From positions 1-64,000 of the forward strand of contig NZ_QBKZ01000024.1 of assembly GCF_003056725.1 (NCBI RefSeq): 64,000 nt of DNA, given 5' to 3'. Positions 32,951 through 42,435 of the stretch are shown here, piece after piece. Source of the stretch: Mangrovicoccus ximenensis. Its GTDB lineage: Bacteria > Pseudomonadota > Alphaproteobacteria > Rhodobacterales > Rhodobacteraceae. How positions within the stretch are numbered: position 1 is the stretch's first letter; each line of letters starts with the position of its first letter. Under the pieces are notes generated by a model. It worked only from the letters and a program-made list of their open reading frames with translations. It searched no databases and was not told where the DNA came from. The position numbers were made by a program, and so were the translations under genes.

Positions 32951-33622
32951 TCAGGCGCCGGTGCCCCGGCAGATCGCTCCGAAAGTCTTGAAAATCACGC
33001 GCAGGTCCGTGCGGAAGCTCAGGGCGCGGTAATAGTCTTCGTCGTAATGCGAGCGGGCGGCAAAGCTGGTTTCGTGGCGGTCGCCGATCTGCCAGAAGCC
33101 GGTGACGCCCGGGAGCAGCATGTAATAAGCCTTGCCCGGATACAGTTCCCGCTGCGACGGCAGCATCGGCCGCGGTCCGACCATGCTCATGTCGCCGATC
33201 AGCACGTTGAGGAACTGGGGAAGCTCGTCGATCGAGGTCTTGCGGATGATGCGGCCGACCAGCGTGATGCGCGGATCGTTGCAGAGCTTCTGCTTCTCGT
33301 CCCATTCGCGCTTGGCGTCGGGATTGGAGGCGAGGTGCTCCAGCAGCCTGGCTTCGGCATCCGCGACCATCGAGCGGAGCTTGAACATCCGGAACTGGCG
33401 GCCGTCCTTGCCGACGCGGATCTGGACGAAGAAGGGGTTGCGCCCGTCAAGGGCGACCAGGAAGGAGAAGATCAGTATGACAGGCAAGACGACAGGCAGG
33501 CTGCATACTACGAAGACAATATCAAATACTCGCTTAAATGTTCCGCGGTAGCCGGATAGGTGTGGTTTGAATTCGACAATTTCGCACGCTTCGTGCGCTG
33601 CCGACTGAAGATGAATGGTCAC
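32951..33622 (-). CDS. bacterial sugar transferase (initiating glycosyltransferase)
   Basis: 223 residues. An N-terminal membrane hairpin (VFDIVFVVCSLPVVLPVILIFSFLVAL) precedes the catalytic part: VGKDGRQFRMFKLRSMV, DELPQFLNVLIGDMSMVGPRPML and GVTGFWQI. These are the landmark motifs of WcaJ/ExoY-type undecaprenyl-phosphate sugar phosphotransferases. It starts the repeat unit of the polymer. It begins the minus-strand arm of the EPS locus, 500 bases from the divergent arm. Confidence 0.92.
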   Translation of the reverse strand: MTIHLQSAAHEACEIVEFKPHLSGYRGTFKRVFDIVFVVCSLPVVLPVILIFSFLVALDGRNPFFVQIRVGKDGRQFRMFKLRSMVADAEARLLEHLASNPDAKREWDEKQKLCNDPRITLVGRIIRKTSIDELPQFLNVLIGDMSMVGPRPMLPSQRELYPGKAYYMLLPGVTGFWQIGDRHETSFAARSHYDEDYYRALSFRTDLRVIFKTFGAICRGTGA

Positions 33623-34123
33623 GCCAGATCACCTCATGGAGTGTACAAATGTTTTCATGCTTCAGAGATTGATTGCGTCAGACCAATGCCCTGCTGTTAC
33701 TCCGGACAGTTCTAGCAGAGTTTTCAGATCGATCAATCAAGCGCTTAATTTTATGGAAAAGAAGGTTAAGTCCTCGAAGCCTGCCAAGCATATGTAATAA
33801 TTCAACAAAAGACTTGCTTCGCCAGTCTGGGCCGCGTGGCATGGTTGTGTATATAGTTAATATCTTTGGGAACATGGTGGGCGTTTGCGGAAATTTACAC
33901 GATTCTGGACGATGGCAGCCCGTCCGGAGCGCAGCGGGCGGGGCCAACGGGGGCGAGTCGCCGGCTTGCGACCTTTTGCTGCGAAGTTGAAAAACCGCAG
34001 AGACCTCGCCTTGCATTTGTGCCACCCGTGCCGGACCGGGCCAGCCTGGTTTTGACGGAATCTTGTTGAAGATGCCGGGATTGCCGGGGACATCGGCGGG
34101 ACGGGCGTGTAAGCTGGGACACC
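33623..34123. promoter_or_regulatory. divergent promoter region of the EPS locus
   Basis: 501 bases without a gene between the two divergent arms. The left two-thirds are clearly AT-richer than the surroundings (for example GTGTATATAGTTAATATC at about 33846-33863), consistent with two promoters and regulator binding. No consensus for sigma-54 or a known response regulator could be pinned down. Confidence 0.6.
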
Positions 34124-39492: not shown

Positions 39493-40272
39493 ATGGGCGT
39501 TGCGCTGGTAACCGGAGCGGGCAAGCGGCTTGGGCGGAGCATGGCGCTCTGCCTGGCGCGGCAGGGGCATGACATCGCGGCGCATTACGCGAGCTCCGCC
39601 GCCGAGGCCGAGAGCCTCTGCGCGGAGGTGCGCGCGATGGGGCGGGAGGCGCGGGCCTTCCGCGCCGACCTGACCCGCGAGGAGGAGATGCAGGCGCTGG
39701 TGCCCGCCGTGGCGGAGGCCTTCGGGCGGCCGTTGACGGTGCTGGTGAACAACGCCTCGATCTTCGACTACGACAATATCCGCAGCGCCACCCGCGGCAG
39801 CTGGGACCGGCACATGGAAAGCAACCTGCGGGCGCCTTTCGTGCTGATCCAGCACTTCGCCGCGCAGGTGCCCGAGCCGGTCGCGGACGATCGCGGAGAG
39901 CCGGTGGCGCAGGGCCTCGCCGTCAACATGATCGACCAGAGGGTGCGCAAGCTGACCCCGGAATTCATGACCTACACCCTGGCCAAGATGGGGTTGTGGA
40001 CATTGACCCAGACCGCGGCCCAGGGGCTTGCGCCGCGGGTCCGGGTGAACGCGATCGGCCCGGGCCCGACGCTGCAGGGCGCCCGCCAGAGCGATGCGCA
40101 TTTCGCCGGGCAGCGCGCCGCGACCGTGCTCGGCCGCGGGTCCAATCCCGAGGATATCGAGCAGGCGCTGCTTTATTTCCTGACGGCGCGGGGCGTGACC
40201 GGACAGCTGATCTGCACCGATGGCGGCCAGCATCTCGCCTGGCAGACTCCGGATTTGCTTGGCGTAGAGTAA
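39493..40272 (+). CDS. SDR oxidoreductase, FolM/pteridine-reductase-like
   Basis: 259 residues. Rossmann VTGAGKRLGRSMA, VNNAS, and the catalytic YTLAKMG (Tyr and Lys). A VNMIDQRV segment in place of the usual Ser is what FolM and pteridine reductases have. An NADPH-dependent reductase of dihydropterins or a related substrate. A ribosome site (AGGAGGGCAG) precedes the ATG. It is the last gene before the AT-rich region. Confidence 0.82.
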   Translation: MGVALVTGAGKRLGRSMALCLARQGHDIAAHYASSAAEAESLCAEVRAMGREARAFRADLTREEEMQALVPAVAEAFGRPLTVLVNNASIFDYDNIRSATRGSWDRHMESNLRAPFVLIQHFAAQVPEPVADDRGEPVAQGLAVNMIDQRVRKLTPEFMTYTLAKMGLWTLTQTAAQGLAPRVRVNAIGPGPTLQGARQSDAHFAGQRAATVLGRGSNPEDIEQALLYFLTARGVTGQLICTDGGQHLAWQTPDLLGVE

Positions 40273-40560
40273 CCTTTCCCCGGCCAGTTGTGCACCGGTG
40301 AAAGAGGGCGTCATAAATGCATCAAGGAATTGTTAGAATTCTCAAAATCTTAAGGTGTGTCTGAAAATCTTTTCTTTGTTTTCAGACCCTTGAAATTTAG
40401 CCCAAGAAATGGGCAATCTGTGGAAAGACAGGTGAAACAAGGGAAAAACGCATCTACCCAGAACTTCTCCAGAGAGTTATCCACAACTTCGGTGGATTTG
40501 TTCTCTCTTGAGCTCGCTCCGGAAACGCGGCAGGGCTCCAAGGAATCAAGACGCCCGGAC
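40273..40560. promoter_or_regulatory. AT-rich intergenic region with a DnaA-box and inverted repeat
   Basis: 288 bases with roughly half the GC of their surroundings. A perfect DnaA-type box TTATCCACA lies at 40477-40485, with a weaker one (TGTGGAAAG) at 40419-40427 and a possible one at 40289. A perfect 9-base inverted repeat (GTCTGAAAA at 40359-40367, TTTTCAGAC at 40379-40387) with an 11-base pyrimidine-rich loop sits in the middle. It may be an origin-like or DnaA-regulated region or only the promoter of uvrC; one perfect box is not enough for an origin. Confidence 0.45.
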
Positions 40561-42435
40561 ATGACTGCCGATTCTGACCTTCCTCCCGATGCGCCGCTGA
40601 CCGGCCACGCCCTGATCGCGGACTACCTGCGCAATCTCGAGACCTCGCCGGGCGTCTACCGGATGCTCGATGCGCAGCAGCGGGTGCTCTATGTGGGCAA
40701 GGCGCGGAACCTCAAGGCGCGGGTCTCGAGCTATGCGCGGCCGCATGGCCATAGCGGGCGGATCGCGCGGATGATCTCGGAAACCGCGTCGATGATGTTC
40801 CTCACGACGCGCACCGAGACCGAGGCGCTGCTGCTCGAGCAGAACCTGATCAAGCAGCTCAAGCCGCGCTACAACGTGCTCCTGCGCGACGACAAGAGTT
40901 TCCCGAACATCCATGTCACCGGGCACGACTTCCCGCAGATCACCAAGCACCGCGGCAAGAAATCGGCGCCCGGGCGCTATTACGGACCCTTCGCCTCCGC
41001 AGGCGCGGTGAACCGGACGCTGAACCAGCTGCAGCGGGTCTTCCTGCTCCGGAACTGCACCGACAGCCAGTTCGAGAGCCGCACGCGCCCCTGCCTGCTC
41101 TACCAGATCAAGCGCTGCAGCGCGCCTTGCGTCGGCTATGTCTCCGCCCCCGAATACCGCGCGCTGGTGAAGGATGCAGAGGAGTTCCTCTCGGGGAAGT
41201 CCACCAAGCTTCAGGCGCAGCTCGCCGAGGAGATGCAGAAGGCCTCGGAAGCGATGGAATTCGAGCGCGCCGCCGCGCTGCGCGACCGGATCCGGGCGAT
41301 GACCCAGGTGCAGACCGCGCAGGGCATCAACCCGCGCGGCGTGGCCGAGGCCGACATCGTCGCGCTGCATGCCGAGAACGGACAGGCCTGCGTCCAGGTG
41401 TTCTTCATCCGCGCCAACCAGAACTGGGGCAACCGCGACTACTATCCGCGCGTCGGCGAGGGGGTCAGCGAGACCGAGATCATGGAGGCCTTCCTCGGCC
41501 AGTTCTATTCCGACCGCGAGCCGCCGCGGCAGCTCTTGCTGTCGCATGGCATCGAGGACGAGGATCTGATGCTCGAGGCGCTGGCGCAGAAGGCCGGGCG
41601 CAAGGTCGAGATCCTCGTTCCGCAGCGGGGCGAGAAGGCCGAGCTGATCGCCGGGGCCGCACGCAATGCCCGCGAGAGCCTGGCGCGCAAGATGTCCGAG
41701 ACCGCGACCCAGGGCAAGCTCCTGCGCGGGGTCGCCGAGGCCTTCGGGCTCGACGCGCCGCCCGCGAGGATCGAGGTCTACGACAACTCGCATATCCAGG
41801 GCACCAACGCGGTCGGCGGCATGATCGTCGCTGGCCCCGAGGGGTTCCTGAAGACCCAGTACCGCAAGTTCAACATCCGCGGCGACGAACTGGTCCCGGG
41901 CGACGATTTCGGCATGATGAAAGAGGTGCTGACGCGCCGGTTCAAGCGCCTCTTGAAGGAGGATCCGGACCGGACGCTGGGGCTCTGGCCGGATCTGCTG
42001 CTGATCGACGGCGGTGCCGGGCAGGTGAGCGCAGTCCACGAGATCATGCAGGAATTCGGCGTCGAGGACGTGCCGATGGTCGGCGTCGCCAAGGGCATCG
42101 ACCGCGACGCGGGCAAGGAGGAATTCCACCGGGTGGGCCAGAGGCCGATGGCGCTGCGCCGCAACGACCCGGTGCTCTATTTCATCCAGCGCCTGCGCGA
42201 CGAGGCGCACCGCTTCGCCATCGGCACCCACCGGGCCAAGCGCGCCAAGGCCGTGGGGGCGACGCCGCTCGACGAGGTTCCGGGCGTGGGCGCGGCGCGG
42301 AAGCGCGCGCTGCTGGCGCATTTCGGCTCGGCCAAGGCCGTTGGCCGTGCCAATCTCGCCGACCTTCGCGCGGTGGAGGGCATCTCCGACAGCATGGCGC
42401 AGAAGATCTACGATTTCTTCAACCCGGGCAGCTGA
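40561..42435 (+). CDS. uvrC: excinuclease ABC subunit C
   Basis: 624 residues. GIY-YIG domain [30 protein letters not shown], Cys-containing central region [17 protein letters not shown], UvrB-interacting [12 protein letters not shown], and a C-terminal endonuclease with [20 protein letters not shown] (the D/H catalytic part), LLIDGGAGQ and a helix-hairpin-helix tail [18 protein letters not shown]. The protein cuts on both sides of the lesion in nucleotide-excision repair. Start at 40561 because upstream codons lie in the regulatory region. Confidence 0.95.

Follow-up and report, generated by a model that had tools for sequence, protein, structure and literature searches.

We analyzed a stretch of 64,000 nucleotides from the draft genome of Mangrovicoccus ximenensis (positions 1 to 64,000 of contig NZ_QBKZ01000024.1), which is referred to as the window in the following. 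Within it, an SDR gene ends with its stop codon at 40270-40272 and uvrC (40561-42435, plus strand; assigned by its translation and a TIGR00194 match of 551 bits) starts with an ATG at 40561, leaving 40273-40560 as the exact intergenic gap of 288 bp. The initial annotation had described this region as strikingly AT-rich, and its base composition bears this out: the GC content is 46.9% vs. 68.0% for the whole window, and only 0.49% of the sampled 288-bp windows are equally AT-rich. The lowest value for a 288-bp window (43.75%) was found away from uvrC, near 33.6 kb. This second AT-rich gap (33500-34000) lies upstream of genes resembling an exopolysaccharide ATPase, a Wzz-type chain-length protein and a tyrosine-kinase-like protein.

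The gap before uvrC harbors the sole perfect DnaA box of the window, TTATCCACA at 40477-40485 on the plus strand (box II), as well as the weaker boxes reported in the initial annotation. Box III (TTCTCCAGA, 40465-40473) lies on the plus strand and starts 12 bp before box II; box I (40491-40499, read as GGTGGATTT on the plus strand) lies on the minus strand and starts 14 bp after it; a distal DnaA-type box (TTGTGCACC, 40288-40296, plus strand) is located 189 bp upstream of box II. Compared with the pattern TTWTNCACA, boxes III, II and I show 7, 9 and 6 of 9 matches, respectively, with III and I being weak. In the resulting arrangement, III(+) -12 bp- II(+) -14 bp- I(-), boxes II and I point towards each other with 5 bp between them. 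The occurrence of a single perfect box is unremarkable, since perfect TTATCCACA-type 9-mers are found 14 times in the draft genome (5.97 Mb, 34 contigs) and the reversed control pattern 22 times. What exceeds chance is the conservation of the perfect box upstream of uvrC and its fixed spacing to other motifs.

Besides the DnaA boxes, a predicted IHF-type site (TTTCAGACCCTTG, one mismatch) was located at 40380-40392 on the plus strand, corresponding to position -97 relative to box II, and a second, weaker one (TCTCAAAATCTTA, one mismatch to WATCARNNNNTTR) at 40340-40352 on the same strand (-137). A pattern search further revealed a dyad, GCCCAAGAAATGGGC, at 40400-40414 (-77), which matches the Fis consensus GNNYANNNNNTRNNC exactly. 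The consensus patterns used for IHF and Fis are those printed in the available text of PMC10380432 and PMC8682772, respectively. The Fis pattern matches 48 times in the window, at a background of approximately 0.001 to 0.002 per position in neighbouring sequence; consequently, the position of the dyad and not its presence counts as evidence. An IHF-alpha gene is present in the genome. The perfect 9-bp inverted repeat with a pyrimidine-rich loop that had also been described does exist (GTCTGAAAA at 40359-40367 and TTTTCAGAC at 40379-40387, 11-nt loop). We read it as incidental, because its right arm overlaps the conserved IHF-type site, and it was dropped as a functional feature: three sequences of the same genus in our alignment (L002-L004) lack it.

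The last part of the gap (40510-40560, plus strand) contains conserved CTTG, GCAG and GAATC (40543-40547) motifs, is kept in Rhodobacteraceae and is probably the uvrC promoter region. In the family alignment, AGAATCA, which includes this GAATC, is well kept just before the uvrC start; the motif fits GANTC, the methylation site of CcrM.

Inspection of the same interval in relatives, as the initial annotation had suggested, covered 80 uvrC loci and six more from Rhodobacteraceae. One of them (L041), in which the contig ends and only 82 bp precede uvrC, was left out, resulting in 85 usable loci. As the 80 loci were found via UvrC, adjacency to uvrC is given by construction in this set, and it is the matches of the profile R1 described below that were found by DNA alone. 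A perfect DnaA box upstream of uvrC is present in 76/85 loci (75/85 when anchored on the whole core). A gapped consensus hid the spacing of the remaining motifs, which was revealed by an ungapped view anchored on the perfect box: the motifs occur at fixed distances, even though the mean pairwise identity is 52% over 269 bp. In 75/84 loci, the distal box (TTNTVCAC) is placed 187-189 bp before box II; an IHF-type site with no more than one mismatch is found between -96 and -100 in 76/84, and the Fis-consensus dyad at -76 to -79 in 72/84. The second IHF-type site at -137 (at most one mismatch) was found in 50/84 loci of Rhodobacteraceae vs. 2/81 loci of other Alphaproteobacteria (at -139) and is thus not a feature of Alphaproteobacteria outside the family.

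For these spacing counts, loci with more than two mismatches in boxes II and I combined were dropped, namely L059 of the 85 and L207 and L223 of the 83 loci outside the family introduced below; L223 does carry a core with one mismatch, located outside the interval searched. L180 entered the spacing and dyad tallies at a wrong place, its true core having three mismatches. The alignment A1 and the sequence-only profile R1 (269 positions) comprise 67 of 76 non-redundant loci, and nine loci with deviant spacing or core (L032, L044, L052, L065, L070, L075, L076, L081 and L082) were excluded by hand, which means that R1 leans to the regular form. Furthermore, the sequences are related, and the locus counts are therefore not independent.

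Across the Alphaproteobacteria, R1 matched 243/387 genomes, usually with one match per genome, and gave no match in the remaining 144/387 by profile search alone. In 800 kb of control sequence from two relatives, two matches were obtained at E up to 10, both representing uvrC elements, and no further one up to the same E. We inspected 83 alphaproteobacterial loci outside the family, from 81 genomes, which were among the better R1 matches listed. At 70/83 of these loci, uvrC is located downstream of the element on the same strand, and an SDR gene is found near it at 58/83. Most of the listed matches stop at model position 217-244, short of the uvrC-proximal stretch. The IHF-type site (-96 to -100) is present in 70/81 and the dyad (-76 to -79) in 75/81 of these loci. 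The distal box shows a main distance about one helical turn greater than in Rhodobacteraceae, at 197-203 bp in 38/81 loci (31 of them at 199-201 bp); it occurs at 190-193 bp in eight, at 212-213 bp in four and at 219-220 bp in three loci, and no such box was detected at 160-240 bp in 27/81.

The spacing within the core was assessed by counting matches to TTWTNCACA at different offsets from box II. Box III reaches at least 7 matches at offset 12 in 48/84 loci of Rhodobacteraceae, 74/81 of other Alphaproteobacteria and 20/20 loci from outside the class, and at the remaining offsets from 9 to 16 in 0 to 11 loci. For box I, the same threshold is reached at offset 14 in 7/84, 63/81 and 20/20 loci, and at the remaining offsets from 11 to 18 in 0 to 2 loci. 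The spacing of both boxes is thus offset-specific in all three locus groups; the count of 7/84 means that box I is weak in the window's own family. At looser thresholds, the 12/14 triad is present in 73/84, 77/81 and 20/20 loci.

One conceivable function of such a region would be that of a uvrC promoter controlled by DnaA and IHF, which would tie the expression of a repair gene to the cell cycle or the replication state and would have no effect on DnaA itself. The frequent position of uvrC downstream on the same strand (70/83) and the additional conserved stretch abutting uvrC in Rhodobacteraceae are in line with this explanation, as is the title of a paper cited in the available part of PMC12371093, according to which DnaA and LexA regulate uvrB of E. 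coli. However, the element occurs without an adjacent uvrC at 13/83 alphaproteobacterial loci outside the family. Two of these (L235 and L250) are second copies, with the other copy in each genome located by uvrC. At L198, the element lies between an SDR gene and a hydrolase gene that run towards each other; at L170 and L227, it is found near xseA.

The element also occurs beyond the Alphaproteobacteria. In a sample of the phylum, R1 matched 159/299 genomes, alphaproteobacterial ones included, and some genomes from outside the class carry two to six copies of the element. Twenty loci of the same phylum from outside the class, picked from the better R1 matches in 14 genomes, contain the triad in 20/20, the dyad in 16/20, the distal box at 187-191 bp in 13/20 and an IHF consensus site in 4/20 cases. 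Their neighbouring genes are varied and include recG, priA (L264, L268), rmuC (one ORF away), pyrD, COQ7, citrate synthase and the gene of an ABC protein; at three of the 20 loci (L251, L265, L269), the element is located between convergent genes. A core found beside such varied genes, and three times between convergent ones, makes a plain uvrC promoter unlikely, and the approximately 200 bp of fixed spacing are long for a simple promoter. Altogether, we consider a role restricted to uvrC expression improbable, though it retains a real share of our expectation. Among the loci outside the class, L264 (G560) has the element in tandem, with both copies located after a hemE-like gene and before priA, and five genomes of family f170 with a size of approximately 2.5-3.1 Mb (G451, G459, G462, G466 and G491) have five to six element matches each. 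A search of a plasmid collection yielded no homologue of the element.

The arms of the dyad vary between loci yet are often complementary, with perfect 5-bp arms in 31/72, 29/75 and 7/16 of the dyads in Rhodobacteraceae, other Alphaproteobacteria and the loci outside the class, respectively, which would also be conceivable for a structured RNA, such as a leader or a small RNA. The consensus fold of the 67 Rhodobacteraceae sequences, however, reached -0.72 kcal/mol with four pairs, none of which is changed on both sides, and no Rfam match came near the gathering score. Based on the negative Rfam search and the negative covariation result, the latter for the Rhodobacteraceae alignment only, we rejected a structured RNA, to which we assign a very small probability.

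The arrangement of the core conforms to a known class of DnaA-binding elements, the DARS, whose published core is described in the accessible text of PMC5742627 as three equally spaced boxes with box I in the opposite orientation. A scan for the 12/14 triad passed only a single site in the window (40477, score 22). In E. coli, the same scan recovered DARS1 with a score of 25 of 27 and the stretch upstream of mutH (DARS2) with 24 and 22, where the latter scores cover two triads, either of which may be the published core. The DARS1 stretch (after bioD, ending before uvrB) and the DARS2 stretch (before mutH) were located from their neighbouring genes and their boxes. The higher-scoring triad upstream of mutH (L153:1137-1170, E. 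coli K-12) reaches 24 of 27 with the same 12/14 spacing and lies approximately 316 bp from the triad scoring 22 of 27. Nothing passed the scan in 8 kb around oriC or 8 kb around datA of E. coli. In the 800 kb from the two relatives, only the uvrC element of G006 reaches 22, and that of G012 stays below this score.

Searching 112 kb of E. coli sequence with R1 ranked DARS1 first (17.4 bits, in register), with the match covering only the core (model positions 177-224) and not extending to the IHF-type site, the dyad or the distal box. Partial matches were obtained in oriC (13.4 bits) and datA (11.4 bits), both above the DARS2 stretch (10.4 and 6.1 bits). As these matches outrank DARS2, a match to the profile is by itself not specific to DARS; judged from these sequences, it is the facing box I, and not the profile score, that separates DARS from other DnaA sites. 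A further conceivable function is datA-like, i.e. an IHF-dependent hydrolysis of DnaA-bound ATP, or plain titration of DnaA, either of which would lower initiation. The element resembles datA in combining DnaA boxes and an IHF-type site away from oriC (PMC5742627, accessible text), and the partial R1 match in the datA stretch points in the same direction. datA is characterized by its boxes 2, 3 and 7 with one IHF site. Yet no III-II-I triad passed in the scanned datA stretch, whereas the DARS1 and DARS2 stretches have one, and three boxes together with a distal one would titrate little DnaA. We therefore regard a datA-like site as quite improbable.

The initial annotation had further proposed a chromosomal origin, and the gap shares with oriC its AT-richness, its intergenic position and the presence of DnaA boxes and an IHF-type site. 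Against this, an oriC-like cluster of three perfect DnaA boxes within approximately 330 bp (G000:C1:790450-790780) was found in the draft genome on a contig other than that of the window. maf-like and hemJ-like genes flank the cluster, and rho, mnmE, gidA, gidB, parA and parB come next (gene names by reading translations), with the best ParB match at C1:797400. The AT-rich gap holding the three boxes (G000:C1:790440-790850, corresponding to L149:5440-5850) is probably the chromosomal oriC of the organism. In the complete genome of the relative G012, the samples flanking uvrC (1.866 Mb) both show negative GC skew, placing uvrC mid-arm, and the sign changes far from it, between the samples at 2.78 and 2.90 Mb and next to parB (2.906 Mb). 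In G006, GC-skew values close to zero extend from the sample at 3.17 Mb, near uvrC (3.071 Mb), past parB (3.470 Mb) to the sample at 0.02 Mb, so that this genome does not discriminate between the two positions. The separation of uvrC and parB amounts to approximately 0.40 Mb in G006, 0.42 Mb in G016, 0.70 Mb in G061 and 1.04 Mb in G012. The position in the gap between the SDR gene and uvrC, together with this distance from parB in the four relatives, agrees with the intergenic location away from oriC that is a general trait of DARS. An oriC is recognized by a GC-skew switch, proximity to parAB and a cluster of DnaA boxes; the uvrC element does not coincide with the skew switch in G012, is not located beside parAB and contains only one strong box. 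In view of the oriC-like region elsewhere and the skew of G012, the origin reading was set aside, and we consider it highly improbable that the gap serves as the chromosomal or a second origin. The broader proposal of a replication-related or DnaA-responsive region, on the other hand, is backed at the sequence level by the DnaA-box triad, the IHF-type site and the wide conservation.

Altogether, the element before uvrC is very likely a DnaA nucleoprotein element and likely has a DARS-type core. With moderate confidence, we interpret it as a DARS-like (DnaA-reactivating-type) site, which would exchange ADP for ATP on DnaA. In terms of sequence, boxes III, II and I are ordered, oriented and spaced as in E. 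coli DARS1 and DARS2, and the predicted IHF-type site, the Fis-consensus dyad and the distal DnaA box lie at fixed distances in one AT-rich block. Its occurrence away from uvrC and between convergent genes counts in favor of a DARS-like site. Several findings count against it: the weakness of boxes III and I in the window, the low triad score in G012, the alphaproteobacterial genomes without an R1 match, the partial R1 matches in oriC and datA, the published restriction of Fis to relatives of E. coli, an order of accessory sites unlike that of DARS2 and the linkage to uvrC, which could mean a promoter role.

The E. coli elements provide the closest points of comparison: according to the available text of PMC5835720, DARS1 is located in the promoter region of uvrB and DARS2 in that of mutH. 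The element before uvrC shares with DARS1 the III(+) 12 bp II(+) 14 bp I(-) core with its 5-bp gap between the facing boxes, the match to R1 in register and a nearby uvr gene. It differs from DARS1 in that R1 matches only the core there and none of the accessory sites, and in the lack of a common gene neighbourhood. With DARS2, it has in common the core spacing and a nearby repair gene (mutH in E. coli). DARS2 requires IHF and Fis at set positions according to the accessible part of PMC4245941. As the same text describes, DARS2 was impaired when its IHF sites were displaced by 5 bp, and less so when they were shifted by 10 bp towards the Fis sites. The counterpart of the IHF sites in the uvrC element is a predicted site at 96-100 bp, set in its distance in both alphaproteobacterial groups (76/84 and 70/81 loci) and different in it from E. 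coli. Moreover, the E. coli IHF sites lie between the core and the Fis sites, whereas here the dyad (-77) lies between the core and the IHF-type site (-97), and a distal DnaA box is added at approximately 190-200 bp. Since the order of accessory sites differs from that of DARS2, we do not class the uvrC element as DARS2. The Fis-consensus dyad at 76-79 bp (72/84 and 75/81 loci) is a candidate counterpart of the Fis sites of DARS2, but the accessible text of PMC4245941 confines both Fis and the DARS2 core to those gamma-proteobacteria that are related to E. coli.

In the case of a DARS-like site, one possible scenario is that DnaA-ADP would occupy the III-II-I core while IHF would bend the upstream DNA, perhaps together with a Fis-like protein at the dyad, and that this bending would carry the distal DnaA box to the core. 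The pair of DnaA molecules on the facing boxes II and I might then, as in E. coli, release ADP, and the freed DnaA would bind ATP before the next initiation. The dyad thereby points to a Fis-like partner protein; in Alphaproteobacteria, Fis-type domains are found in regulators of the NtrC or RegA type. Since the block abuts uvrC, transcription of this gene may also respond to the occupancy by DnaA, in analogy to the position of DARS1 in the promoter region of uvrB, and a dual role is thus possible.

The available text of PMC10380432 states that DARS1- and DARS2-like sequences are conserved in many proteobacterial species, and DARS outside E. coli is therefore not a new idea. Judged by titles and abstracts, none of the papers retrieved in our literature search describes a site of the DARS or datA type from Caulobacter or other Alphaproteobacteria, or a DnaA site at uvrC; Fujimitsu et al. 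2009, which is cited for DARS in other species, may already list alphaproteobacterial sites. Within the literature searched, the uvrC-linked alphaproteobacterial form with fixed accessory sites appears to be new. As a tentative explanation, which we hold with less than even confidence, DnaA-reactivation sites could be ancestral to Proteobacteria. The ancestor would have been an IHF-bent module, consisting of a distal DnaA box, an IHF site, a Fis-consensus dyad and the III-II-I core, that predated the E. coli-type Fis. In Alphaproteobacteria, it would have kept its place next to uvrC, while in other groups it would have proliferated next to genes for repair, restart and other functions; the enterobacterial DARS1 and DARS2 would then represent reduced or rearranged forms. 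If true, the recharging of DnaA would be linked throughout the phylum to the loci of repair genes. Being conserved, mostly present once per genome and of DARS geometry, the element offers one precise locus for deletion and assay; from the IHF-type site, the dyad and the distal box, a looped complex with a Fis-like partner would be expected. Repair genes are neighbours of the element here (uvrC) and at some other loci (recG and priA), as they are of the E. coli sites (uvrB and mutH), and a connection between the timing of replication and repair thereby becomes testable.

Two further observations concern the draft genome itself. On the contig of the window, two perfect TTATCCACA boxes lie 774 bp apart (G000:C17:139690 and 140464), at a position where R1 finds no element (L150). 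Finally, five ParB-type matches above the family cut-off were found at five contig places, which suggests that the genome comprises several replicons.
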